In this document: positions 1-25,012 of the stretch, in pieces
How positions within the stretch are numbered: the stretch's first letter is position 1
How the letters are laid out: every line of letters begins with the position of its first letter
IMG/VR virus record: IMGVR_UViG_3300010885_010253
Span: 1 to 31,501 of that record
From: a virus
Length of the DNA: 31,501 nucleotides
Strand: one strand, 5' to 3'
Notes under the pieces: model-generated
Databases searched by the model: none
Told to the model about the DNA's origin: nothing
What the model saw: only the letters and a program-made list of their open reading frames with translations
Program-made: the position numbers and the translations under genes

Positions 1-345
1 CGTGTCACTTCTGCGGTCACCTGCTGAGATGTTGATGTCAAGAATACCATTGTGTGCTAGGTAAGTATCGTAACTATTCTTGACCTTGAATGGGTGACAG
101 TTCTCCTCATTCTTGACACCATGCGTAGCATAGCGAGCATGGAACATAGCATAACTAGACGGAAACTCCTTGCGTACTTCTAGGAACTGTTTGATTACTT
201 TCTTGCTAGACATGCCACGACCTGTGACAATGCCATTGGGCGTGATAACCGCAAAGCCGAAGCCATGCGGATTATTACATGATGCACATTCTAAATCCTT
301 CTTGCGAGGAGTAGAATTAGGCGAGGCTACAACTAATAAACACAT
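1..345 (-). CDS. Class-II glutamine amidotransferase (Ntn hydrolase), 3' part beyond window
   Basis: Leftward gene whose first 115 codons are visible. It starts MCLLVV, so removal of Met exposes Cys2, the nucleophile of class-II (GlmS/PurF-type) glutamine amidotransferases. Other family signatures follow in order: NPHGFGF (25-31), HARYATHG (69-76, the Arg of the usual RxATHG motif), AHNG (97-100, oxyanion-hole Asn-Gly) and RRSDT (111-115, the usual SDS/SDT Asp). An ATG at 360 is in frame, but the Cys-exposing ATG at 345 fits the chemistry and has GAGAG at a good distance. It begins one base after the amidoligase stop, so the two are translationally coupled. Family role: hydrolyse glutamine and pass ammonia to a partner synthase or ligase. 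Inference: the partner is the adjacent amidoligase. The C-terminal part and any fused domain lie outside the window. Confidence 0.88.
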   Translation of the reverse strand, partial: MCLLVVASPNSTPRKKDLECASCNNPHGFGFAVITPNGIVTGRGMSSKKVIKQFLEVRKEFPSSYAMFHARYATHGVKNEENCHPFKVKNSYDTYLAHNGILDINISAGDRRSDT

Positions 346-346
346 C

Positions 347-1588
347 TTACACACTCTCATTCTGTCGGACTAGTCCGACAACTAGTTTATCTATACGGGC
401 TGATAGTTCTGGATACAACGCTTCATTCTGGAATACATACCACATTAAGTTGTCTGCACTAAGTGCGCCTTCACGCACATCTTGAACAGTAAGGGTTCGG
501 GTGTACTCAACACTGGCATGCGCTAAGTCTATCTGGGCTTTAATCGTGTCACCATTAACGCTACCTCGGAAGATACGCATCTCTAGTGTCTCTCTGTTAT
601 TGGTATTGACTGCTGAATAGCGGTCACTATTGTAATCTGTACTTAACTTGTGCTTGAACTGTCGTGTGGTAACAAGTTCGTACCCTGAATCCTCACTCCA
701 TAAACGCTCACCATTGCTATCACGCTTGTAATCATTGCGATAGATGTCTGTGAACTTAGCCCATTGGTCGGAGGTACGACCAGCAAGCGTTGAATAGAAC
801 TCGGGATTGGAATACACAAGGTTGAGGAAACGGTGCATGTGCGCACCACCATTGAAGCCTGTGCGTGAGATGTGAATGTGCAAGCCACATGTCTTGGTAT
901 CCCATGACTTGACTCTGTATGCACTATTGCTACGCAACTGTTCTATCACACTCCATAACTCCTGTGCCTCATTCTTAAAGAACTCATGAGACATTGGGTG
1001 TGTGACTATCTCGAAGCCACTATTAAGCGAGCCGTCATGCTTAAGATAGGCTAGGTCTAACCCTTCTAGTTGGTGTGCATAGTGGGCAGACTCACGCAGA
1101 TTGTGACCTGCTTCTACCTCTATCTCTAGACCAAAGAACAAGCGTTCATTCTTGTCTACACTATGGAAGATAGCATCAGGGCGGTAACTGTAATCATGGA
1201 TTACACGACCACCCTCATCATCTGAGCAACTGTCGCAACCATCACTGTTCCATTCATCACATGAGTCACACCAGTAGGCATCATTGAGGCACATCTCGCA
1301 CCAATGTTCCTGTCGGTCTGTCACATAGGAAGTGCCATATGAGTTGTATTCCTCACATGACTCGCACCAATAAGCACGATTCTCTGTACATGACTCACAC
1401 CATGTATCACCATCAACCACATGAAAGTCGTCATTGGTAGAGCCTATGTTGTCACATCTATAACATGTTTGTACGCACTCGCTACATACAATGTCGTCAT
1501 AGATAGTTGTAATTGAATTATCAGCCTCAATGTTGGTACTACACACCACACATTCGACCTGACCATCAACTGCATCTGTCATTGTCAT
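347..1588 (-). CDS. Amidoligase-family (COOH-NH2 ligase) protein with N-terminal zinc ribbons
   Basis: A 413-residue protein in two parts. Residues 13-121 hold eight CxxC pairs (13/16, 35/38, 42/45, 64/67, 75/78, 97/100, 107/110, 118/121), enough for about four zinc sites in LIM/zinc-ribbon style. Residues about 150-345 carry the signature of the Amidoligase_2 family (glutamine-synthetase/ATP-grasp-like ligases): FFGLEIEVE (151-159), KHDGSL (183-188), GFEIVTHPMS (191-200), CGLHIHIS (234-241) and ETLEMRIFRGS (333-343). Such enzymes use ATP to form amide bonds on carboxyl groups; the substrate here is unknown. The downstream glutaminase could supply ammonia. ATG 1588 (AGGA, 5 nt spacing) and ATG 1582 (AAGG, 7 nt spacing) are both possible starts. 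1582 would place the upstream palindrome at the same 15-17 nt distance seen in three other genes. The last 10 codons overlap another copy of the palindrome. Confidence 0.85.
   Translation of the reverse strand: MTMTDAVDGQVECVVCSTNIEADNSITTIYDDIVCSECVQTCYRCDNIGSTNDDFHVVDGDTWCESCTENRAYWCESCEEYNSYGTSYVTDRQEHWCEMCLNDAYWCDSCDEWNSDGCDSCSDDEGGRVIHDYSYRPDAIFHSVDKNERLFFGLEIEVEAGHNLRESAHYAHQLEGLDLAYLKHDGSLNSGFEIVTHPMSHEFFKNEAQELWSVIEQLRSNSAYRVKSWDTKTCGLHIHISRTGFNGGAHMHRFLNLVYSNPEFYSTLAGRTSDQWAKFTDIYRNDYKRDSNGERLWSEDSGYELVTTRQFKHKLSTDYNSDRYSAVNTNNRETLEMRIFRGSVNGDTIKAQIDLAHASVEYTRTLTVQDVREGALSADNLMWYVFQNEALYPELSARIDKLVVGLVRQNESV
363..380. repeat. CGGACTAGTCCG palindrome, copy 1
   Basis: Perfect 18-bp palindrome TGTCGGACTAGTCCGACA. 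It lies inside the 3' end of the amidoligase coding region (encoding VGLVRQ) and ends 17 nt before the glutamine amidotransferase start at 345. In RNA it would form a 7-bp stem with a CUAG loop. Identical to copies 3 and 4. Confidence 0.9.
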
Positions 1589-1597
1589 ACCTTTCCT

Positions 1598-1613
1598 GAC
1601 GGACTAGTCCGTC
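1598..1613. repeat. CGGACTAGTCCG palindrome, copy 2 (compensated variant)
   Basis: Perfect 16-bp palindrome GACGGACTAGTCCGTC. Compared with copies 1, 3 and 4 one base differs in each arm, and the two changes compensate, so dyad symmetry is kept. It sits in the leader of the amidoligase gene, 9 nt before ATG 1588 or 15 nt before ATG 1582. Confidence 0.88.
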
Positions 1614-1644
1614 GCTACAACTCATTGCGCTTTGCAATAAGATA

Positions 1645-1673
1645 ATCATACTATACGGATAACTTACTGTCAA
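1645..1673 (-). promoter_or_regulatory. Leftward sigma70-type promoter for the amidoligase-amidotransferase pair
   Basis: Read leftward: TTGACA at 1673-1668, a 17-bp spacer, TATGAT at 1650-1645. This is close to the consensus. It lies in the 3' end of the 55-residue gene and would start transcription near 1638. The leader then holds a small hairpin (ATTGC-gcttt-GCAAT on the plus strand, about 1624-1638), palindrome copy 2 and the amidoligase ribosome site. Confidence 0.8.
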
Positions 1674-1818
1674 TCATGGCATCATTCATGTGAGAACGAA
1701 TGTCTTGGATTTGTGCAACCAGCGCCTTGAAATCATTACGCTTGTGCGCTTCTTCCTGCAATCGTAAAGCACCCATGACGGCACTCCACTCCGTTTCAGT
1801 GAACTCAACCTTAATCAT
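1651..1818 (-). CDS. Small helical protein, 55 aa, unknown
   Basis: Starts MIKVEFTETEW and ends IDSKLSV. It is rich in charged and helix-forming residues (LRLQEEAHKRNDFKALVAQ) and has no membrane segment or cysteine, so a short helical or coiled-coil protein is likely. Its ATG overlaps the stop of the upstream 61-residue gene (ATGA), typical of translational coupling. The promoter for the next gene lies in its last codons. Function not recognised. Confidence 0.6.
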   Translation of the reverse strand: MIKVEFTETEWSAVMGALRLQEEAHKRNDFKALVAQIQDIRSHMNDAMIDSKLSV

Positions 1819-2000
1819 TGCTGATAAGCCATAACTGTCTCGAATACGGCATCATCTAACTGGGAGACAAGTTCTGCCCATTCATCTTTTGACAACCCAT
1901 GCCCAAGAATTTCTTGAACAAGGTCGTAATCAAGGCGCGACTCCCATAAATTTGTGTCGGCGATACCGTTCGCCACTAATTCATCTGCTGTTGGGTACAT
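1815..2000 (-). CDS. Small acidic protein, 61 aa, unknown
   Basis: Starts MYPTADELVANG and ends VMAYQQ; acidic and probably helical. The upstream in-frame GTG at 2009 is less likely than ATG 2000, because GAGGGG lies 8 nt before the ATG. The gene starts two bases after the 49-residue gene ends and overlaps the next gene by four bases, so the three form one small leftward operon. No known domain seen. Confidence 0.65.
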   Translation of the reverse strand: MYPTADELVANGIADTNLWESRLDYDLVQEILGHGLSKDEWAELVSQLDDAVFETVMAYQQ

Positions 2001-2002
2001 GA

Positions 2003-2152
2003 TTACCACCCCTCGCGGATACGCTTAGCAAGGCGAAGCACTACAACAGCGACAATAGCAATCATCCATGTACGGTGATTTAGGTACACATCACCGAAGT
2101 AACTTTCAATGTTGATACTCCACTTACTTACTTCTAGGTTGAACAGTTCCAT
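2003..2152 (-). CDS. Small single-pass membrane protein, 49 aa
   Basis: Starts MELFNLEVSKW and ends KRIREGW. A hydrophobic stretch (WMIAIVAVVVLRLA, about residues 29-42) followed by KRIRE suggests one membrane segment with a positive cytoplasmic tail. AAAGG precedes the ATG at suitable spacing. First gene after the structured leader at 2188-2297 and palindrome copy 3 (17 nt before the start), so its expression is the most likely target of those elements. Function unknown; small phage membrane proteins of this type often affect the host envelope or superinfection, but nothing here shows that. Confidence 0.6.
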   Translation of the reverse strand: MELFNLEVSKWSINIESYFGDVYLNHRTWMIAIVAVVVLRLAKRIREGW

Positions 2153-2169
2153 TTACTTACCTTTCATAC

Positions 2170-2187
2170 TGTCGGACTAGTCCGACA
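2170..2187. repeat. CGGACTAGTCCG palindrome, copy 3
   Basis: Perfect 18-bp palindrome identical to copies 1 and 4, 17 nt before the start of the 49-residue gene. It directly abuts a second, unrelated palindrome at 2188-2206. Confidence 0.9.
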
Positions 2188-2206
2188 TGATAACAATTTG
2201 TTATCA
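2188..2206. repeat. 19-bp odd palindrome abutting copy 3
   Basis: TGATAACAATTTGTTATCA: two perfect 9-base arms around one central T. No base separates it from the 18-bp palindrome at 2170-2187. It could be a protein operator or an RNA hairpin in the leader of the small-gene operon. Confidence 0.8.
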
Positions 2207-2297
2207 CGCGCTCACCGCTGGACTTGCACCAGCGTTACTGCCTATCGTGAGCCACCAGCCTACGCCTGCCCAAATTCAGGGTAGGCTATCCGCTAAG
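2207..2297 (-). ncRNA. Probable structured leader RNA or small RNA (two nested hairpins)
   Basis: No gene fits this stretch. It begins where the promoter at 2304-2332 should start transcription. Hairpin A pairs 2257-2263 (AGCCTAC) with 2281-2287 (GTAGGCT) and, after a one-base bulge, CCTG 2265-2268 with CAGG 2277-2280. Hairpin B pairs GCTCAC 2210-2215 with GTGAGC 2247-2252 and CGCTGG 2216-2221 with CCAGCG 2229-2234 around a 7-nt loop, leaving a 12-nt one-sided bulge. Read leftward, GCTGGTG occurs twice, so CCAGC could pair with either copy; this is a possible switch. Hairpin B looks like a tRNA T-arm stacked on an acceptor stem, but there are no D or anticodon arms. A riboswitch, regulatory leader or independent small RNA are all possible; I cannot name a family. 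Confidence 0.55.
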
Positions 2298-2303
2298 GTC
2301 TTA

Positions 2304-2332
2304 ATTCTAGCATGGGGAAATGATTGGGTCAA
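2304..2332 (-). promoter_or_regulatory. Leftward sigma70-type promoter for the structured leader and small-gene operon
   Basis: Read leftward: TTGACC at 2332-2327, a 17-bp spacer, TAGAAT at 2309-2304. The -35 box overlaps the stop codon of the 43-residue gene. The predicted start near 2297 places hairpin A at the very 5' end of the transcript. Confidence 0.78.
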
Positions 2333-2460
2333 ATACGAGCAACAGTATCAGCCTCTCGTATAGCCTTTACTCCGCGCTCATACCTCTCCTGCTCTGCTCG
2401 CTTCTCGTTCAGAATGTTAGTCTGCACTTCGAGATGAGCGACTAATTCATTTAGGTTCAT
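2329..2460 (-). CDS. Small coiled-coil-like protein, 43 aa
   Basis: Starts MNLNELVAHLEVQ and ends EADTVARI. Dense in Glu, Arg, Lys and Leu, as expected for a short helix. It has its own promoter (2535-2563), a leader with palindrome copy 4 (15 nt before the ATG) and a weak GTGAG ribosome site. The consistent upstream architecture is the main reason to accept so short a gene. Function unknown. Confidence 0.55.
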   Translation of the reverse strand: MNLNELVAHLEVQTNILNEKRAEQERYERGVKAIREADTVARI

Positions 2461-2475
2461 TTGATACTCACTCTC

Positions 2476-2493
2476 TGTCGGACTAGTCCGACA
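2476..2493. repeat. CGGACTAGTCCG palindrome, copy 4
   Basis: Perfect 18-bp palindrome identical to copies 1 and 3. It lies in the transcribed leader of the 43-residue gene, 15 nt before its start codon. Confidence 0.9.
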
Positions 2494-2534
2494 CTATGGT
2501 TTATCAACAAGCGGAAGTGCCTGCCAATACCTTA

Positions 2535-2563
2535 ATTATAGGGCATGGAAACTAATGGGTCAA
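2535..2563 (-). promoter_or_regulatory. Leftward sigma70-type promoter for the 43-residue gene
   Basis: Read leftward: TTGACC at 2563-2558, a 17-bp spacer, a perfect TATAAT at 2540-2535. Palindrome copy 5 lies four bases upstream of the -35 box. The -35 and -10 surroundings resemble the promoter at 2304-2332, suggesting duplication. Confidence 0.85.
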
Positions 2564-2566
2564 GCC

Positions 2567-2583
2567 TGTCGGACTAGTCCGTC
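2567..2583. repeat. CGGACTAGTCCG palindrome, copy 5 (imperfect)
   Basis: TGTCGGACTAGTCCGTC: the 12-bp core is perfect, but the left arm is of the copy-1 type and the right arm of the copy-2 type, so outer symmetry is broken. It lies outside the predicted transcripts, centred 38 bp upstream of the centre of a -10 box, the same offset as copy 6. A lone half-site GTCCGAC follows at about 2603. Confidence 0.85.
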
Positions 2584-2620
2584 GGGCTGCAAATCAAATG
2601 GCGTCCGACCGCGAATAAAA

Positions 2621-2676
2621 GTTTGTGTTGGTTTGTGTTGGAAAATTTTCTCAGGATTTTCTCAGGAAACTCTCAG
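2621..2676. repeat. GTTTGTGTTG tandem pair plus CTCAGGA repeats
   Basis: GTTTGTGTTG occurs twice in tandem (2621-2640). It is followed by TTCTCAGGA (2648-2656) and TTCTCAGGAAACTCTCAG (2659-2676). The same elements recur on the far side of the 202-residue gene (3493-3693, with TTTGTGTTG at about 3559), so that gene is flanked by related repeat blocks. They may be iteron-like binding sites. The rest of the gap 2494-2746 holds a promoter, palindrome copy 5 and a terminator. Confidence 0.7.
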
Positions 2677-2700
2677 CAAAGCTTTGCAGATTTTGGGCAG

Positions 2701-2748
2701 AAAAAAAGCCCGACCCTCTCGGGCCGAGCCTTTTTCCTTGTCGGGCTT
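2701..2748 (-). terminator. Intrinsic terminator after the 202-residue gene
   Basis: Read leftward, AAGCCCGAC (plus-strand 2740-2748) pairs with GTCGGGCTT (2706-2714) and runs into seven T residues (2707-2701). The stem begins at the stop codon of the 202-residue gene. A smaller hairpin (GCCCGA/TCGGGC, 2708-2724) can also form inside. Confidence 0.88.
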
Positions 2749-3355
2749 AGATTAGTTGGAGAGTTTTGGCCTCGATTACGGTATAAATCTCGGTGACCAA
2801 ATCGGCCTCAGCCTCGGTGATTGCCTGAAAATCTAGTGCCTCGACGAAGGCAAGGATAGATTTCAAGGTATCGGCTGGCGTTGCTTTTGCTTTCGCTGGC
2901 TTGTCTGCTTTTGGTGCTGATGCCTTAGAATTGCGTAGTGCTTTTTCAGCCTTAGTTGCTTTCGCGATTGCCTCCCATGAGCCTAGCTTTTCAGCGTTGC
3001 CAGCGCCGAGCATTTTATAGGCTGCGGTTGCGCGGGCTAGTTGCTTGTCTAGTGGCATAGCCTTAAAATCGGCATGAGTTTCGCGGAGGTTTTTCCATGT
3101 AGGCAAACCCTCGACATGGGAGATAAGGAGAATTCCTGATGTCTTTCCTGTTGCCTTGATGACCTTTTGCTTGTCCTTGATTGAGAGGTTCGAGGCAACG
3201 AGTTCAGAGACCAGAGAGAGAATCGAGTCCGCGATTTTTGACTCTGCTGAATCTGATGCCTTGCATGCGCTTATCCATGCGTTAGCGATTTTTGGTGCTG
3301 ATACGACTACTGCTGAATTCTTAGTGCCCTGTACTGCTTTTTTTGATGTTGTCAT
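2747..3355 (-). CDS. Lys/Ala-rich protein, 202 aa, unknown, possible DNA-binding or origin-associated protein
   Basis: Family not recognised. A helical N-terminal two thirds (residues about 20-140) contains DSILSLVSELVASNLSIKDK and a Trp-rich stretch near residue 86. A low-complexity basic linker of Lys, Ala and Pro follows (about 145-165), then an acidic helical C-terminus ending IEAKTLQLI. Basic Ala/Lys/Pro linkers are common in nucleic-acid-binding proteins; that is inference. The gene has its own promoter (3408-3435), a leader hairpin (3373-3403) and its own terminator, so it is an independent unit. Palindromes and CTCAGGAA repeats lie on both sides and the DnaA-box cluster lies immediately upstream. 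It is therefore a candidate for binding these repeats in replication or early control. AAAAGGA precedes the start. Confidence 0.75.
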   Translation of the reverse strand: MTTSKKAVQGTKNSAVVVSAPKIANAWISACKASDSAESKIADSILSLVSELVASNLSIKDKQKVIKATGKTSGILLISHVEGLPTWKNLRETHADFKAMPLDKQLARATAAYKMLGAGNAEKLGSWEAIAKATKAEKALRNSKASAPKADKPAKAKATPADTLKSILAFVEALDFQAITEAEADLVTEIYTVIEAKTLQLI

Positions 3356-3372
3356 TTGGGATTTTTCCTTTT

Positions 3373-3403
3373 CTATGAGGGAGACGTTCGCTCGTTCTCA
3401 TAG
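3373..3403 (-). promoter_or_regulatory. Leader hairpin at the 5' end of the 202-residue gene's transcript
   Basis: CTATGAG (3373-3379) and CTCATAG (3397-3403) are perfect 7-base inverted repeats around a 17-nt loop. The promoter at 3408-3435 should start transcription near 3401, so this stem would cap the mRNA 5' end, ahead of the AAAAGGA ribosome site. It may stabilise the message or modulate translation. Confidence 0.55.
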
Positions 3404-3407
3404 GAAA

Positions 3408-3435
3408 ATTCTAGCATAGTAAAACGATTTGGCAC
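3408..3435 (-). promoter_or_regulatory. Leftward promoter for the 202-residue gene
   Basis: Read leftward: GTGCCA at 3435-3430 (weak -35), a 16-bp spacer, TAGAAT at 3413-3408. Palindrome copy 6 lies five bases upstream of the -35. A weak -35 with a palindrome next to it is what an activator-dependent promoter would look like. Confidence 0.65.
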
Positions 3436-3440
3436 ACCAT

Positions 3441-3456
3441 GTCGGACTAGTCCGAC
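3441..3456. repeat. CGGACTAGTCCG palindrome, copy 6
   Basis: Perfect 16-bp palindrome GTCGGACTAGTCCGAC. Its centre is 38 bp upstream of the centre of the -10 box of the 202-residue gene's promoter, exactly the offset seen for copy 5. Confidence 0.88.
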
Positions 3457-3492
3457 GGCATGAGTCTCGTGTCGATTTATCGACATTTCCAA

Positions 3493-3693
3493 TTCTCAGG
3501 AAACTCTCAGTTTCCACCCTGGGTCAGCCTCTCAGACAATTCTCAGGAAACTCTAAGGTTTGTGTTGAAAGTTATCCACAGGTTTATCCACAGGTGTGTA
3601 TAACTTGTGCATAGATTTCCCCCACTTATCCACAGGCTAGGGAGATAGACAGATGCTCAGGAAATCCTCATTTAATTCTCAGGAACTTCTCAG
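3493..3693. other. Candidate replication origin: CTCAGGAA repeats and DnaA boxes
   Basis: TTCTCAGGAAACTCTCAG (3493-3510), TTCTCAGGAAACTCTAAG (3540-3557), GCTCAGGAAATCCTCA (3655-3670) and TTCTCAGGAACTTCTCAG (3676-3693) surround a cluster of DnaA boxes (3572-3634). TTTGTGTTG recurs at about 3559. AT-rich sequence follows from about 3740 to 4040. Direct repeats, DnaA boxes and adjacent AT-rich DNA are the classic parts of a DnaA-assisted origin. No strong gene fits the region. Confidence 0.6.
3572..3634. other. DnaA-box cluster
   Basis: TTATCCACA is present exactly at 3572-3580, 3584-3592 and 3626-3634. TTATACACA is on the minus strand at 3595-3603. A one-mismatch box, CTATGCACA, is on the minus strand at about 3605-3613. 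The bacterial consensus is TTATNCACA, so four of five are exact within 63 bp. This implies binding by the host initiator DnaA. Confidence 0.8.
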
Positions 3694-7773: not shown

Positions 7774-8319
7774 ATGACAACAATAATTGGCGTGCAATTA
7801 GAGCACGGATGCATAGTTGTCAGCGATAGTAGAATCGCAGCAAGTGGTAAAGTATATACCCACCCTGATATGGTAAAAGCCGTACAGCGTGGTAATTATG
7901 TTATTGCAGGTGCTGGTGACTATCGTGCTTTGCAGATTGTATTACATGGATGGACACCTCCAGCACTTACAATTAAAGCAAAAGAAAATCTTTATGAGTT
8001 TATGATTAACAAAGTAGTGCCAATGTTAAAGACAACACTTACTACTGCTGGTATAGAACTCAATAAATCATCAGATGACTCAAGTAATAAGTTTGAGTTA
8101 AGTCTTTTGATAGCAGTTAATGGGACTATTTTTGAAATTGATTCTGACTTTGCAGTAGGAATGAATAGCACAGGATTTTATGGCATCGGCTCAGGTGGTG
8201 ACTACGCAGTAGGAGCACTACATGCTGGAGCAAGTACATTAGATGCAATGCGAATTGCAGCAATTAATAATAACGAGACGGCTCCGCCGTTTCATATTCT
8301 TGAACAAGAAACTAAGTAG
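7774..8319 (+). CDS. Proteasome/HslV-like Ntn hydrolase, candidate head-maturation protease
   Basis: A 181-residue protein starting MTTIIGVQLEHG. After Met removal Thr1 is the predicted nucleophile. Asp17 lies in VVSDSR, exactly where proteasome beta subunits and HslV have it, and Lys34 is within one residue of the usual Lys33. AGAGDYRAL and YGIGSGGDYAVGAL match the family's later motifs, the second carrying the conserved Ser-Gly-Gly. There is no propeptide. Its place between portal and head genes, and the lack of any other recognisable prohead protease in the window, suggest it trims scaffold or internal virion proteins. Alternatively it could be a non-structural protease or act on host proteins. 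No HslU-like or proteasomal ATPase is seen. Confidence 0.82.
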   Translation: MTTIIGVQLEHGCIVVSDSRIAASGKVYTHPDMVKAVQRGNYVIAGAGDYRALQIVLHGWTPPALTIKAKENLYEFMINKVVPMLKTTLTTAGIELNKSSDDSSNKFELSLLIAVNGTIFEIDSDFAVGMNSTGFYGIGSGGDYAVGALHAGASTLDAMRIAAINNNETAPPFHILEQETK

Positions 8320-14448: not shown

Positions 14449-15437
14449 TGGCGGCACAAGACGCGTTAAACGATGCCAGAATAGCGGCAGCAGAAGCAGC
14501 AGCAGCAGCAGCAGCAGGCGGTGCAGCAGCATCAGCAGCAGCAGCGGAAGCGGCTGCCAAAGCAACTGCAGAAGCAGCCAAAAGGGCGGCATTTAACGAC
14601 CCAACTATTCAAGAGCAGATTCAGATGATTCTTGCTCTAAAGGATACCGACACAAACCTTGCTGCTGCATGGAATGCTTACCTTGCTGGAGATATTGACA
14701 CCTTCCGTTCATCAGTTCTTGCAAGTAATTTTTATAAAAACAATAGTGCTCTAGCACGTCAACGCCAAACAGCAAAGATTAATCAGCGTGGCGCGTATGA
14801 CCAACAATTAAATGACTACAAGGCAACCACAAAGCGTCGCCTCATAGCAGTTGGCGTTAAGTGGACAGATGCTCTTGCAGCGCAAGTAGAGGTTGCGTTT
14901 GATAAAGGTCTATCAGACACATCATTAGATGAAGTATTAATTTCAACTGGTGCAATTGGTCAACTTGGTGGTTCAACTCTTGGTGCCATTAATGCACTCA
15001 AGACGTTTGCCAATGATTATGGCGTAAGCAATCTTTACAACAAAGCATACTGGGACTCTAAAGCAACAGGTATCTTTGCTGGAACGACAACATTAGAAGA
15101 CATTCAACAAGAAATTCAAACATTATCAGCCAGCGCATTCCCTGCTTATGCAGATGGAATCGCTAAAGGTGTTTCTCTTAAAGCACAAGGCTCAAGCGTT
15201 TTGCAAACAGTTGCAACATACCTTGAAAAAGACCCAGATACACTATCATTTGATGACCCTCTAGTAAAGCAAATCATGCAGTATATCGACCCTGTTACTG
15301 GCAAGCCAGCACGTATGCCACAATGGGAAGCAGAAAAAGTAGTCAAGAGCACCGCAGGCTGGGCAGAGACTAAGAATGCTAGAGATACAATTGATAATCT
15401 ATCTTACAAGGTATTAAGGGATTGGGGCCTAGCATAA
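14448..15437 (+). CDS. Structural-region protein with poly-Ala N-terminus, 329 aa
   Basis: GTG start (GTGGCG) overlapping the previous stop, with GGAGG nine bases before. Residues about 9-46 are almost all Ala with a few Glu, Lys and Gly, a probable long helix coded by a GCA repeat. The rest is helical (VKWTDALAAQVEVAFDKGLS, LKTFANDYGVSNLYNKAYWD) and resembles in style the C-terminal third of the next protein, so both may belong to one internal-core family. The stop overlaps the next ATG (TAATG). Confidence 0.68.
   Translation: MAAQDALNDARIAAAEAAAAAAAGGAAASAAAAEAAAKATAEAAKRAAFNDPTIQEQIQMILALKDTDTNLAAAWNAYLAGDIDTFRSSVLASNFYKNNSALARQRQTAKINQRGAYDQQLNDYKATTKRRLIAVGVKWTDALAAQVEVAFDKGLSDTSLDEVLISTGAIGQLGGSTLGAINALKTFANDYGVSNLYNKAYWDSKATGIFAGTTTLEDIQQEIQTLSASAFPAYADGIAKGVSLKAQGSSVLQTVATYLEKDPDTLSFDDPLVKQIMQYIDPVTGKPARMPQWEAEKVVKSTAGWAETKNARDTIDNLSYKVLRDWGLA
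14484..14547. repeat. In-frame GCA microsatellite
   Basis: About twenty codons, mostly GCA with a few GCG, GAA, GGC and TCA, within the poly-Ala segment of the 329-residue protein. The longest uninterrupted run is seven GCA/GCA-like triplets. Such runs change length by slippage without breaking the frame. Confidence 0.75.
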
Positions 15438-18004
15438 TGGCATATACAAAGAAGCAATGGGATGCTCAACAGGCATCCTTCCCCGCAGAAGATAGAATTT
15501 CCTACGATGAATATCTTCGTGCTGCTGGACTAGAAAATTTTAGAACATCAGAGTCTGCAAATGCACCTCAAAGCAATGTAATGATGAATGATGATTCTTA
15601 TTACTCAGGACAACGTGCCGATTTACTTGCACAACAGGCTGCAATTATTGCTGCTGGAAATGTACTAGCAAATTACAAAACAGCACAAGGTGTAAGTTAC
15701 ACAAGTAATTCCATAGGTTTTATCGAGCCTGGGGCAAATACATCCACTGTAGTACCTACTGTAACGCCTACTGTAACACCTACGACAACTGCAACTACAT
15801 ACACTCCTGCACAGTTACAGGCGATAGTTTCAAAACTTACTCGTAATGAAATGTTAACAGATGAAGAGTGGGCTGCACTTGGTCAGGTGCCACCAAAGAC
15901 GCCTACCGCACCTACTCCTGCAACCATTACAAAAACTATTAAATCTGAAACCTTTACTGGTACTGGCAAAGACCGTAAAAAAGTAATTACTTATGATGAT
16001 AATACTACAGAAACTATTGACGCGCCAGAAGAAGTAGTAGGCAGTGATTATGAAGATGTTGGTGGCATACTTACATACAAAGGTAAAGCATATACTGGCG
16101 CTTACAACGGTCAGAATTACGTAAATGGCAGAGTTGTTAAAACCCCAGGTGACGATATTTATGAAACCCTTAATGGTGTATTCCAACTTAATGGTAAGCC
16201 GTATACTGGTATTTATGGCGACAAAGAATACAAAAATGGTGTAGAAGTTCCTGTAGGTTCAGGTAACTATGAAACCATTGGTGGCATATTTACATTTAAT
16301 GGCAAAGCATACACTGGTGAATATAATGGCAAGAAATATGTAAATGGTCTTGAACAAAAAATTCCAGTTGAAGATAAATATGAAACCGTTAATGGAGTAT
16401 TTACAAAAAACGGTGCTGCTTTTACTGGTGAATATGCTGGCAAGAAATATAAAAATGGTATCTTAGATGAAGAATCAAGTAATATTGATGGTTTTACAAC
16501 AAAGGACGGCCTTCTTTATGAGAATGGTAAATTATTTAGCGGTGAACGAGAAGGCAAAAACTACAAGAATGGTTTAGTAGTAGATGCTACTGGAGAGCCA
16601 GAACGCCCAGCAAATGTAAACAAATTTTTTGTATACAACCCAAAAACCAAAACATGGGAAAAACCACCAAAGCCTCAAGATGGTGCTACCTATACTTGGA
16701 ATGATAACACTGGTTGGGTACAAGAAACCCCTGCAGCGGTTCGCCCAGCAGGAACTCCCGCTGCCTATATCTATGATGAAAAAACAAAAACATGGATAAA
16801 GCCACCTCAAGCCGACCCTAATACTGTATGGGATAACGACAAGGGTTGGATTGCAAAAACTGCTGTCGTTAAAAAAATTAAGTCTGAGACCTTTATTGGT
16901 ACTGGTGCTAATCGTAAAAGAGTTGTTACTTATGATGACAATACCACTGAGACATTTGATGCACCAGAGACACTTACTGTCAGTAAAAAGATTAAGTCTG
17001 AAACTTTTATTGGCACAGGAGCCAACCGCAAGAAAGTTATTACTTACGACGATAATACCACAGAAACTGTCGATGCTCCAGAAACTCCTGCTAACGGTGA
17101 CGGCACTAGCGGTACGGGTGTATTTACCCAGAAAGATATCGATGCGGCAGTTGCTGCCGCATTAAAGGCTTCCACAGAAACAACTGCTAAGAATAACATG
17201 ATTCAAATTCTTACTGACCGTTTCGCACAGTATGGTCTATCTAGCCTTACCAGTAAGATTAAAGAACTTGCAATAAGTGGAGCAACAGAAGCAACAATTA
17301 CTCTTGGTTTGATGGAAACAGAAGAATACAAGAAACGCTTCTCAGCAAACGCCGACCGAATTAAAAAGGGATTGGCTGTGCTTAGCCCAGCAGAATATCT
17401 CAATGTTGAAGATTCATACCGTCAAGTACTACGTGCTTACGGATTAAAGCAGTTTGATACAGATGAATACGTAAAGCAATTTATCTCTAACGACATTTCT
17501 CCAACTGAACTATCAAACCGTGTTGTTACAGCAGTACAGCGTGTACAAAATGCTGACCCTGCTATTATCAACCAACTTAAGCAGTACTACGGCATTAGCG
17601 CTACAGACATGGTCGGATACGTTCTTGACCCAGAACAGTCATTCCAGAAAATTCAACGCCAGATTGCAGCATCAGAGATTGGTGTAGCAGCAGGTCGTCA
17701 AGGACTTACTGCTGGAGTATCAGTTGCTGAACAACTTGCAGCGCAAGGTGTCACCGAAGCAGAAGCGCAAAAGGGTTATGCAACTATTGCAGACATTCTT
17801 CCAACTGCAGAGAAACTATCCAGTATCTATGGTACAACCCTAGATGGATATGGACAAACAGAAGGCGAACAAGAAGTATTCAATAGCCTAGCATCAGCGC
17901 AACGCAAGCGTCAAAAACTTACTGCACGTGAAATTGCAGCCTTTAGTGGCTCAGCAGGTGCAGCAAAGACAAGCCTATCCACATCACGGGTAGGCCAATT
18001 CTAG
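15437..18004 (+). CDS. Modular repeat structural protein, 855 aa
   Basis: ATG 15437 overlaps the previous stop; a TTG at 15422 is in frame but less likely. Layout: N-terminal 120 residues helical then Thr/Pro-rich. One copy of a 33-residue unit beginning KTIKSETFTGTG is at about 166-198, and two more copies are near 479-511 and 517-549. Five copies of a ~36-residue unit with consensus-like NGKxYTGEYNGKxYKNG occupy about 203-385. Two copies of a KTKTW-KPP unit with a GW end occupy about 397-475. The C-terminal 300 residues are helical, similar in style to the 329-residue protein. The beta-rich repeats suggest a surface-exposed or elongated structure. Its place just before the scaffold suggests a virion protein, perhaps a head decoration or internal-core component. 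Confidence 0.75.
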   Translation: MAYTKKQWDAQQASFPAEDRISYDEYLRAAGLENFRTSESANAPQSNVMMNDDSYYSGQRADLLAQQAAIIAAGNVLANYKTAQGVSYTSNSIGFIEPGANTSTVVPTVTPTVTPTTTATTYTPAQLQAIVSKLTRNEMLTDEEWAALGQVPPKTPTAPTPATITKTIKSETFTGTGKDRKKVITYDDNTTETIDAPEEVVGSDYEDVGGILTYKGKAYTGAYNGQNYVNGRVVKTPGDDIYETLNGVFQLNGKPYTGIYGDKEYKNGVEVPVGSGNYETIGGIFTFNGKAYTGEYNGKKYVNGLEQKIPVEDKYETVNGVFTKNGAAFTGEYAGKKYKNGILDEESSNIDGFTTKDGLLYENGKLFSGEREGKNYKNGLVVDATGEPERPANVNKFFVYNPKTKTWEKPPKPQDGATYTWNDNTGWVQETPAAVRPAGTPAAYIYDEKTKTWIKPPQADPNTVWDNDKGWIAKTAVVKKIKSETFIGTGANRKRVVTYDDNTTETFDAPETLTVSKKIKSETFIGTGANRKKVITYDDNTTETVDAPETPANGDGTSGTGVFTQKDIDAAVAAALKASTETTAKNNMIQILTDRFAQYGLSSLTSKIKELAISGATEATITLGLMETEEYKKRFSANADRIKKGLAVLSPAEYLNVEDSYRQVLRAYGLKQFDTDEYVKQFISNDISPTELSNRVVTAVQRVQNADPAIINQLKQYYGISATDMVGYVLDPEQSFQKIQRQIAASEIGVAAGRQGLTAGVSVAEQLAAQGVTEAEAQKGYATIADILPTAEKLSSIYGTTLDGYGQTEGEQEVFNSLASAQRKRQKLTAREIAAFSGSAGAAKTSLSTSRVGQF
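15932..17083 (+). repeat. Three dispersed 33-codon repeats (IKSETF-TYDDNTTET units)
   Basis: Copies at 15932-16030, 16871-16969 and 16985-17083. Protein sequences are nearly identical, while many third codon positions differ (compare AAGTCTGAGACC with AAGTCTGAAACT). This points to an old duplication kept by selection at protein level rather than a recent copy. Confidence 0.85.
16043..16590 (+). repeat. Five tandem ~36-codon repeats (NGKxYTGEYNGKxYKNG units)
   Basis: Units start near 16043, 16153, 16264, 16372 and 16486. Each has a YE-x-GGI/NGVF opening, an NGK-YTG middle and a YKNG or YVNG end. The pattern recalls MORN-like beta hairpins but does not match the MORN consensus well. The fifth copy is the most diverged. 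Confidence 0.85.
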
Positions 18005-22831: not shown

Positions 22832-25012
22832 ATGACAACTAGAAAATACTCCTCACGCTCTCAGCAATCAACGCTGACAGGTACAGTAACCTCAGGTGCT
22901 ACCACGATGGCAGTCATCTCTGGTACGTCGCTACTTGGTGGTGTAACAATCCCTGCTGGTACAACCTTTACGATTGTTATCGACCCAGATACGGCAATCG
23001 AAGAAATTGTAGATGCCACGGCGGTATCAACCAATACCTTTAATATTACTCGAGCCATTGATGGCTCATCAGCACAGGAACATACAGCAGGAGCAGTAGT
23101 TCGTCACATGGCTATTGGCCGTGACTACCGTGAGGCAAACACTCACATCGAGTCTACCACTGGCGTACACGGTGCTACAGGGGCTGTAGTAGGTACTACA
23201 GATACTCAGACCCTGACCAATAAGACACTGACTTCCCCTACGATTACTAACCCTAGCATCTCGGGTGCTGGTGTAGATGCAAGCATCGTCTTTGAAGGAG
23301 CAACTGCTGATGCTTATGAAACTACTCTTACAGTAGTTGACCCTACACAGGACAATACAATCACAATGCCTAATACAACAGGCACAGTGGTGATTGCTAC
23401 AGCAGTCCAGACTCTTACAAACAAGACTTTAACCAGCCCGACTATCTCAGGCTCACCAGTTATTACTGGTCTATCTTCTGCAGGTATGTCTGCCTCATCT
23501 GCTACTCCTAAAGATTACGTAGATAGCATTCTAGGCTCAGCAACTGCAGCATCTACGTCTGCTGCTAGTGCAGCAACTAGTGCTACATCTGCTGCAACAA
23601 GCGCTACAAGCGCAGCAGCCAGTGCAACGGCAGCAGCGGCATCTGCCGTCACAGCAGGAAGTTCAGCAACAGCAGCAGCAACTTCTGCTACCTCAGCAGC
23701 AGCCTCTGCCACAGCAGCAGCAACTAGTGCATCAAGTGCGGCAACAAGTGCCACAGCAGCGGCTACATCAGCCACATCTGCTGCAGCCAGTGCGACAACT
23801 GCTGCTGCTTCTGTAGCAACAATTGCAGGGTATGCAACTACTGCATCTAACTCAGCAAGTGCAGCAGCCACAAGCGCCTCAAGCGCATCAACATCTGCTG
23901 CATCTGCATTAACTTCTGCAAACTCTGCTGCTACTAGCGCTTCTACTATGGGTACAAGCGTTACGGCTGCAGCGACAAGTGCTGCTAGTGCAGCGACAAG
24001 CGCAACGGCTGCAGCAACTTCGGCTGCATCTGCAGCAACGTCTGCATCTGCTGCTTCGACATCAGCAAGTAGCGCATCAACAAGTGCAAGTTCAGCATTG
24101 ACAAGTGCAAACAGTGCAAGTACAAGTGCTGCCTCGGCAGGCACATCGGCTACTGCATCTGCTACATCAGCAAGTGCATCTGCGACATCCGCAACTGCAG
24201 CAGCGACTAGCGCCTCGTCTGCCGCTACATCGGCATCTTCTGCTGCAACGACATACGATGATTTTGATGACCGATATCTTGGTAGCAAGTCAACTGCTCC
24301 TACAGTAGACAATGATGGCAACACACTTCTTGTAGGTGCTATTTATTGGAACTCAACTCTTAACAATATGTATGTATGGTCAGGTTCTGCATGGGTGCAG
24401 ATTGCTACAACTAGCGTTTACACGGCACCTACACTTGGCTCGACCACCATTAACTCTGGCGCAACAGTATCCAATGTTAATGCTTTAACTATTAACTCAA
24501 CAACCATACCAACATCTAAGACTTTAGTAGTAACTACAGATAAACTGTCTGCCCTTGCTGCTACTACATCTACTGAACTTGCTGGTGTTATCTCAGATGA
24601 AACAGGTACAGGAGCATTAGTATTTGCTACATCACCAACATTGGTTACACCCGTACTTGGCGTTGCAACGGCAACATCTATTAACTCAACAACAATTCCT
24701 TCATCTAAGACTCTAGTAGCCACAGACTCAACTGTTTATGTAGTCCCTTCTCAGACTGGAAACTCAGGCAAGTTCTTAACAACAGATGGCACTGCATCGT
24801 CTTGGGGTACTGTTGCTAGTTATTCAGCCCCAACTATTGGCTCAACATCTATTCCTTCAGGTACTACAGTAACAACTATTGCTGGTTTAACTTTAACAGC
24901 ACCAACATTAACTGGAACAGTAACTGCATCAGGAGATATTAACCTGTCTGCAACAAATGGACCAGGAAGTTTAATTGACGAACTAGCCCTCATTATGATG
25001 GGCGCCCTCTAA
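22832..25012 (+). CDS. Tail fibre with Ala/Ser/Thr repeat shaft, 726 aa
   Basis: N-terminal ~110 residues are beta-rich and end YREANTHIE, like fibre attachment domains. The motif QTLTNKTLTSPTI then occurs twice (about 128 and 190), as in many phage fibres. Residues about 236-473 are nearly pure Ala, Ser and Thr with seven-residue regularity (SAATSAT-like), a probable trimeric shaft as in lambda Stf-type side fibres. A beta-rich C-terminal head (VDNDGNTLLVGAIYWNSTLN, VWSGSAWVQIATT and more) probably binds the host surface. The 5' gene is the adaptor and the 3' genes also encode receptor-region proteins. Confidence 0.85.
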   Translation: MTTRKYSSRSQQSTLTGTVTSGATTMAVISGTSLLGGVTIPAGTTFTIVIDPDTAIEEIVDATAVSTNTFNITRAIDGSSAQEHTAGAVVRHMAIGRDYREANTHIESTTGVHGATGAVVGTTDTQTLTNKTLTSPTITNPSISGAGVDASIVFEGATADAYETTLTVVDPTQDNTITMPNTTGTVVIATAVQTLTNKTLTSPTISGSPVITGLSSAGMSASSATPKDYVDSILGSATAASTSAASAATSATSAATSATSAAASATAAAASAVTAGSSATAAATSATSAAASATAAATSASSAATSATAAATSATSAAASATTAAASVATIAGYATTASNSASAAATSASSASTSAASALTSANSAATSASTMGTSVTAAATSAASAATSATAAATSAASAATSASAASTSASSASTSASSALTSANSASTSAASAGTSATASATSASASATSATAAATSASSAATSASSAATTYDDFDDRYLGSKSTAPTVDNDGNTLLVGAIYWNSTLNNMYVWSGSAWVQIATTSVYTAPTLGSTTINSGATVSNVNALTINSTTIPTSKTLVVTTDKLSALAATTSTELAGVISDETGTGALVFATSPTLVTPVLGVATATSINSTTIPSSKTLVATDSTVYVVPSQTGNSGKFLTTDGTASSWGTVASYSAPTIGSTSIPSGTTVTTIAGLTLTAPTLTGTVTASGDINLSATNGPGSLIDELALIMMGAL
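23537..24251 (+). repeat. Ala/Ser/Thr repeat region of the tail fibre
   Basis: About 238 codons drawn almost only from GCA/GCT/GCC, AGT/AGC/TCA/TCT and ACA/ACT. Repeat units are short and imperfect (GCAACAAGTGC-like). Long open frames on both strands here are by-products of this composition. The length is likely to vary between relatives. Confidence 0.85.

Follow-up and report, generated by a model that had tools for sequence, protein, structure and literature searches.

At one end of a 31,501-base virus record, analysed whole and here called the window, two adjacent genes encode an amidoligase and a class-II glutamine amidotransferase (glutaminase; Table 1), and the locus raises the question of what such a pair makes and which material it acts on. 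That the pair is an amidating enzyme is likely and well supported by inference; we also lean towards the fuller explanation, a two-subunit glutamine-dependent amide synthetase that would be made early and act on host material. The direct basis for a synthetase is the pairing of the genes, the intact catalytic and cysteine residues, the predicted folds, the conservation of the operon and promoter, and the absence of the genes from cultivated sister phages.

Table 1. Positions of the features of the amidoligase–glutaminase locus in the window.
Feature	Position	Strand	Remarks and basis
Class-II glutamine amidotransferase (glutaminase), first 115 codons	1..345	-	Runs off contig end at base 1; Pfam, relatives
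Amidoligase gene	347..1588 including stop codon 347-349 (coding 350-1588)	-	413 aa, intact; ORF call, Pfam, PHROG matches
Catalytic domain, glutamine-synthetase fold	350..1156	-	Residues 145-413; AlphaFold2 model, fold matches, conservation
Predicted N-terminal zinc-binding region, eight CxxC pairs, LIM-like spacing	1226..1552	-	Residues 13-121; sequence, conservation, LIM matches
Operator-like palindrome CGGACTAGTCCG upstream of glutaminase start, inside amidoligase 3' end	366..377	.	Repeat search, relatives
Operator-like palindrome CGGACTAGTCCG downstream of promoter, ahead of amidoligase start	1600..1611	.	Repeat search, relatives
Inverted repeat ATTGC-AAAGC-GCAAT just past the -10 element	1624..1638	-	Sequence; recurs in relatives
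Sigma-70-type promoter TTGACA-N17-TATGAT	1645..1673	-	11/12 matches; overlaps end of upstream small gene
Small conserved upstream gene, same operon, no function assigned	1651..1818	-	55 aa; ORF call, relatives
Small conserved upstream gene, same operon, no function assigned	1815..2009	-	64 aa; ORF call, relatives

The carrier is a freshwater actinophage. Its terminase–portal DNA is about 74% identical to that of LanE43AprE7 and LanE43AprF5 (OX376640/41), cultivated phages that infect 'Ca. Planktophila' (PMC10202952). A complete relative, G004 (38,822 bases, terminal repeat of 45 bases), is syntenic with both cultivated phages, and the terminases are 84% identical. Right after the portal gene of the window, a plus-strand gene (7774-8319) encodes a proteasome-like Ntn hydrolase (PF00227, E 0.007, below the cut-off); a diverged homologue occupies the same place in the two Planktophila phages, and the product may be a phage protease, for head maturation or another role.

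The amidoligase matches Amidoligase_2 (PF12224) with an E-value of 1.2e-10 and 42.2 bits against a gathering cut-off of 22, and its PHROG matches are phrog_16683 (1e-32) and phrog_22302 (9e-22). A sequence search returned no near solved structure. The AlphaFold2 model (mean pLDDT 90.5) resembles Streptomyces coelicolor glutamine synthetase (4bax; Z 12.8, 3.5 A, 180 residues), the YbdK-like protein 1tt4 (Z 12.5, 3.8 A, 220 residues), and plant glutamate–cysteine ligase (2gwc; Z 11.7). Sixty-nine non-redundant amidoligases, 45–89% identical to the window protein, were compared; E155, E157, D185, S187, E193, H197, H237, H239, R242, R271, N328, E336, and R338 are invariant in all of them, and the set of metal/ATP and substrate residues (ExE, E, HxH, R, and N..E.R) is intact throughout. 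The dN/dS ratio of the gene is 0.16–0.19.

Ahead of the catalytic domain lie the CxxC pairs C13/16, 35/38, 42/45, 64/67, 75/78, 97/100, 107/110, and 118/121. Eleven of the 16 cysteines are invariant among the 69 relatives, and C13, C16, and C118 are kept in 68; 60 relatives have Cys at position 78 and seven have His, and C121 is variable. These modules are predicted to bind zinc. Residues 13-67 are spaced CxxC-x18-CxxC-x3-CxxC-x18-CxxC, which is near, but not exactly, the LIM pattern used for comparison (CxxC-x16-23-(H/C)xxC-x2-CxxC-x16-21-Cxx(C/D/H)), with Cys in place of His and x3 in place of x2. The Pfam scan gave no LIM match; in Foldseek the N-terminal part showed weak fold matches to LIM domains, PINCH and LMO2 among them, with E-values of about 0.015.

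LIM modules are protein-docking modules, and one reading, by analogy with protein modifiers of the glutamine-synthetase fold such as PafA and Dop, is that those of the phage ligase bind a particular protein of the host or phage whose side chains or C terminus are then amidated. This is consistent with the module spacing and fold matches, with the hosts being Actinobacteria, and with the presence of the Pup ligase PafA and of Dop in the Foldseek list of the ligase; these two matches are, however, weaker than those to glutamine synthetase and YbdK, cysteine modules on two subunits may merely join the subunits, and no small, conserved gene for a peptide tag came to light. Protein-directed amidation is on balance unlikely as the explanation. 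Its broader form—a phage system, widespread in phages of abundant freshwater actinobacteria, in which LIM-like zinc adaptors on both subunits direct the glutamine-dependent amidation of particular host-protein carboxylates—we regard as improbable.

The glutaminase gene is about 280 codons long at full length, of which 115 lie inside the window, a truncation that the sequence-only reading did not mention. Its ATG (343-345, giving Met-Cys) is separated from the amidoligase stop codon by the single base 346; a longer version starting at 360, with a 14-nt overlap, was ruled out, as Met-Cys is the start in most relatives and the catalytic cysteine has to be the second residue. The window fragment matches GATase_4 (E 1.2e-5, 24.8 bits against a cut-off of 23), and one full-length relative falls slightly under the Pfam cut-offs. 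Cys2, R71 (in RYATHG), N99-G100, and D114 are in place, and what the sequence-only reading had described, an amidoligase with eight CxxC pairs and one base on a glutaminase with its Cys2, Arg, Asn-Gly, and Asp, is present. Cys2, R71, T74, H75, G76, N99, G100, and D114 are also invariant in 52 of 52 full-length glutaminases, and the loss of catalytic residues in relatives that had been named as telling against the reading thus occurred neither in these nor in the 69 amidoligases. The dN/dS of the fragment is 0.04–0.12. Beyond the window end, visible only in full-length relatives, lies a C-terminal module of eight cysteines (219, 222, 235, 238, 241, 244, 252, and 254), each invariant in the 52 proteins; this tail is poorly modelled, with pLDDT under 50 in parts.

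In ergothioneine synthesis, EgtA works together with EgtC, which cleaves gamma-glutamyl amides and has the same fold as class-II glutaminases. By analogy, the phage ligase could make a gamma-glutamyl amide of a small molecule that the class-II protein later cleaves. The likeness of the ligase fold to glutamate–cysteine ligases (1tt4/YbdK and 2gwc) and a match of the glutaminase model to EgtC (Z 12.2) fit such a scheme, but the glutaminase sequence is GlmS/PurF-like, including RxATHG and NxHP, its NCBIfam matches are glmS and purF, and the EgtC family model gave no NCBIfam match at E-values up to 10. Furthermore, the complete relative showed no other recognisable gene of a small-molecule pathway, and an enzyme acting on small molecules would not ordinarily be expected to carry docking-type cysteine modules; an EgtA/EgtC-like function is accordingly given little weight. 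The glutaminase model, which has the Ntn glutaminase fold, also matches the GlmS glutaminase 1xff (Z 13.1, 4.0 A over 179 residues) and PurF 1ecb (Z 12.4), with all three matches falling in residues 2-192. Sequence and model together support assignment of the glutaminase to the ammonia-releasing GlmS/PurF type.

When viral contigs were scanned with the window amidoligase protein, 35 loci were found, and an alignment-based scan found at least 484 related stretches, of which the best 80 were used; the glutaminase alone gave 530. The two genes had been expected to stay together, and they do: among the matches listed, 93 of 99 distinct amidoligases are followed immediately by a glutaminase gene in the same orientation, and the remaining six end at a contig edge. 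Within the freshwater clade the distance between them ranges from -80 to +37 nt. An alignment-based scan of genome contigs, a weak search with narrow patterns, gave no relative in a host genome. Elsewhere, some phage proteins of the Amidoligase_2 family, such as that of Clostridioides phage AR1086-1, have no glutaminase beside them, and so the family does not always depend on this partner.

Several known systems resemble the pair in part. In the Mycobacterium phage Marvin (Marvinvirus), also an actinophage, gp105 and gp106 are likewise an adjacent amidoligase with an N-terminal cysteine module and a class-II glutaminase with a C-terminal one; both are annotated merely as 'glutamine amidotransferase domain', and the ligase, about 27–29% identical to that of the window, has a smaller number of cysteine pairs and is extended at its C terminus. 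The genes are also directly adjacent in Methylophilales phages MEP401/402 and in podovirus ctgrD200, but the glutaminase of MEP402 and ctgrD200 lacks the C-terminal cysteine module and the ligase is about 22–30% identical to the window protein. In Rhizobium phages, an ATP-grasp gene lies between ligase and glutaminase. LUZ24-like Pseudomonas phages encode Amidoligase_2 and a class-II glutaminase near each other (PMC3890496). In one of them, UFV-P2, amidoligase ORF23 and glutaminase ORF25 are accompanied by a COOH-NH2 ligase (ORF21), an ATP-grasp protein (ORF28), and a GGCT-like protein (ORF29) (PMC3890496), and an HNH endonuclease gene separates the pair, whereas the freshwater genes directly adjoin. 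The freshwater group differs from the LUZ24/phiEco32-type cluster in that the Pfam scan of a complete relative recognised none of the genes for ATP-grasp, GGCT, and COOH-NH2 ligase proteins; for ATP-grasp, there was no Pfam match among the non-structural ORFs scanned in that genome, and a protein search of 14 related genomes, which had no positive control, was also empty.

Outside phages, a functional analogy exists with MurT/GatD and LtsA/AsnB, in which a ligase and a glutaminase carry out glutamine-dependent amidation of carboxylates in peptidoglycan. MurT has a Mur-ligase fold, and its separate glutaminase, GatD, falls outside the class-II Ntn type; AsnB-type enzymes have a PP-loop synthetase, and neither system is known to have a ligase of the glutamine-synthetase fold.

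The earlier description of the locus as a candidate for a new modification system was overstated, as phage amidoligase/glutaminase pairs had been described before (PMC10580990 and PMC3890496), that of MEP401/402 among them (PMC10580990). PMC10580990, with reference to Iyer 2009 and Mageeney 2012, and PMC3890496 describe such pairs as likely modifiers of the cell wall or of secondary metabolites, and the envelope-directed prediction goes back to Iyer 2009 as cited in PMC10580990 and PMC11318856. No experimental substrate or activity for a phage amidoligase–glutaminase pair was found in the literature consulted. The freshwater-actinophage pairs form a large clade in which the ligase has LIM-like modules, the glutaminase has its own cysteine module, and the searches revealed no ATP-grasp partner; no earlier description of this clade was found.

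Comparison with the cultivated phages indicates how the pair is carried. In relatives, it is followed in the operon by a WhiB regulator (PF02467, 3.9e-10), which marks Actinobacteria and the phages that infect them (PMC10202952), and by a transglycosylase/aggregation-promoting-factor-like enzyme (phrog_12661, 6e-17; NF052397, 1e-16). This stretch lies past the window end and was seen in locus L019, where WhiB (L019:8693-9142) precedes a short, N-terminally hydrophobic enzyme of the second kind (L019:9139-9531). LanE43AprE7 and LanE43AprF5 are syntenic and retain both WhiB and the transglycosylase, yet no amidoligase or glutaminase gene was found in them; the pair is therefore an accessory cassette, and in LanE43AprF5 the corresponding region holds a staphylococcal-nuclease-like gene and small ORFs. 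It is thus present or absent as a unit and dispensable for lytic growth of such phages on a 'Ca. Planktophila' host. Because phages without the pair keep both neighbours, the nearby wall enzyme is weak evidence for a cell-wall target. Membership of a defence system was also considered and was dropped, as PADLOC returned no match.

The promoter reported ahead of the pair holds up in the relatives: in about 70 of 90 upstream regions there is a match of at least 10 of 12 positions with a spacer near 17, nearly always with TTGACA at about -90. The inverted repeat that follows probably stands at the 5' end of the mRNA and is perhaps a stabilising hairpin.

We infer several aspects of the synthetase, namely ammonia transfer, early timing, zinc binding and the role of the zinc modules, and the target. 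The class-II glutaminase would release ammonia from glutamine, and the amidoligase, with its glutamine-synthetase fold, would use ATP to activate a carboxyl group and join the ammonia to it, yielding a carboxamide. That the glutaminase feeds the ligase had already been proposed; the pairing, the catalytic residues, and the GlmS/PurF type make ammonia supply the natural expectation. Host polymerase would transcribe the cassette, as part of an early operon, from its host-type promoter, and the LIM-like, cysteine-rich zinc modules on both subunits may hold the complex together, dock it on a macromolecular substrate, or both. The sequence-only reading had the zinc ribbons pick a macromolecular target, which is not supported so far: the LIM-like spacing and fold, together with the cysteine module of the glutaminase, make subunit docking an equally good account. 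Subunit docking and target docking are both possible because the modules occur on both subunits here and in Marvin, and on the ligase side only in ctgrD200 and MEP402.

Host material would in this way be altered during infection, and the most likely site would be an envelope carboxylate, for example in a peptidoglycan stem peptide, such that the change disadvantages competing phages. Accessory early phage genes often act in competition between phages; for this reason, and because published predictions for phage pairs point to the envelope, an envelope carboxylate is tentatively weighted most. Should the pair be an amidating enzyme, the envelope is the first, if tentative, choice of target; a protein ranks second, as a possible but doubtful one; a small molecule is third and rather unlikely; and any other target is improbable.

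Phage DNA, which had been listed among the possible targets together with tRNA, is unlikely to be one. Cysteine modules can bind nucleic acid, and an amide might be formed on a base, but a scan of the complete relative that covered non-structural ORFs of 100 aa or more recognised no thymidylate-synthase-like, deazapurine, or glycosyltransferase gene, nor any other base-modifying gene, and domain scans found no nucleic-acid-modification domain in either protein. DNA or tRNA modification is thus very improbable as an explanation of the pair.

A probable amide synthetase of this kind bears on a question of substrate that dates from 2009, the pairs recurring in unrelated phages. In this abundant freshwater actinobacterial lineage, a cultivated host and sister phages without the pair offer a natural with/without comparison that makes the matter directly testable, and the cysteine modules on both subunits provide a handle for target finding by pull-down.

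The operon also carries a set of palindromes. Six exact copies of CGGACTAGTCCG (366-377, 1600-1611, 2173-2184, 2479-2490, 2570-2581, and 3443-3454) all lie within positions 366-3454 of the window, and four of them precede start codons in the minus-strand operon by 12–32 nt. Many relatives have palindromes at the same positions with other arms (TTCGG, GTCGG, TCGGG, GCGGG, or TCCGT), usually in 4 to 9 copies per locus, with an arm common within a genome and different between genomes: the inner arms of the ligase and glutaminase sites agree in 25 of 31 within-genome cases against 22% of between-genome pairs. Fewer than half of the 85 loci compared showed such a palindrome at both sites. From their sequences, the palindromes look like an operator set co-evolving with a phage regulator, and the stoperators of cluster A mycobacteriophages behave comparably. 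An RNA hairpin is a less likely reading than a DNA operator because the arms change together within a genome, the centres follow a YYRR dyad, and the arm defects observed are G-A mismatches rather than G-U pairs.

Other repeats occur in the window. Repeated TTCTCAGGAAA-type motifs (family D9) occur at 2638-3693, where few genes lie between the terminase gene and the minus-strand operon. On the plus strand, a tandem-like repeat of about 110 bases (37 aa; family D4) occurs four times at 16042-16459 within a gene for an 860-aa protein (15422-18004), and a long repetitive stretch rich in alanine, serine, and threonine spans 23538-24246 in a tail-fibre gene (phrog_38058).
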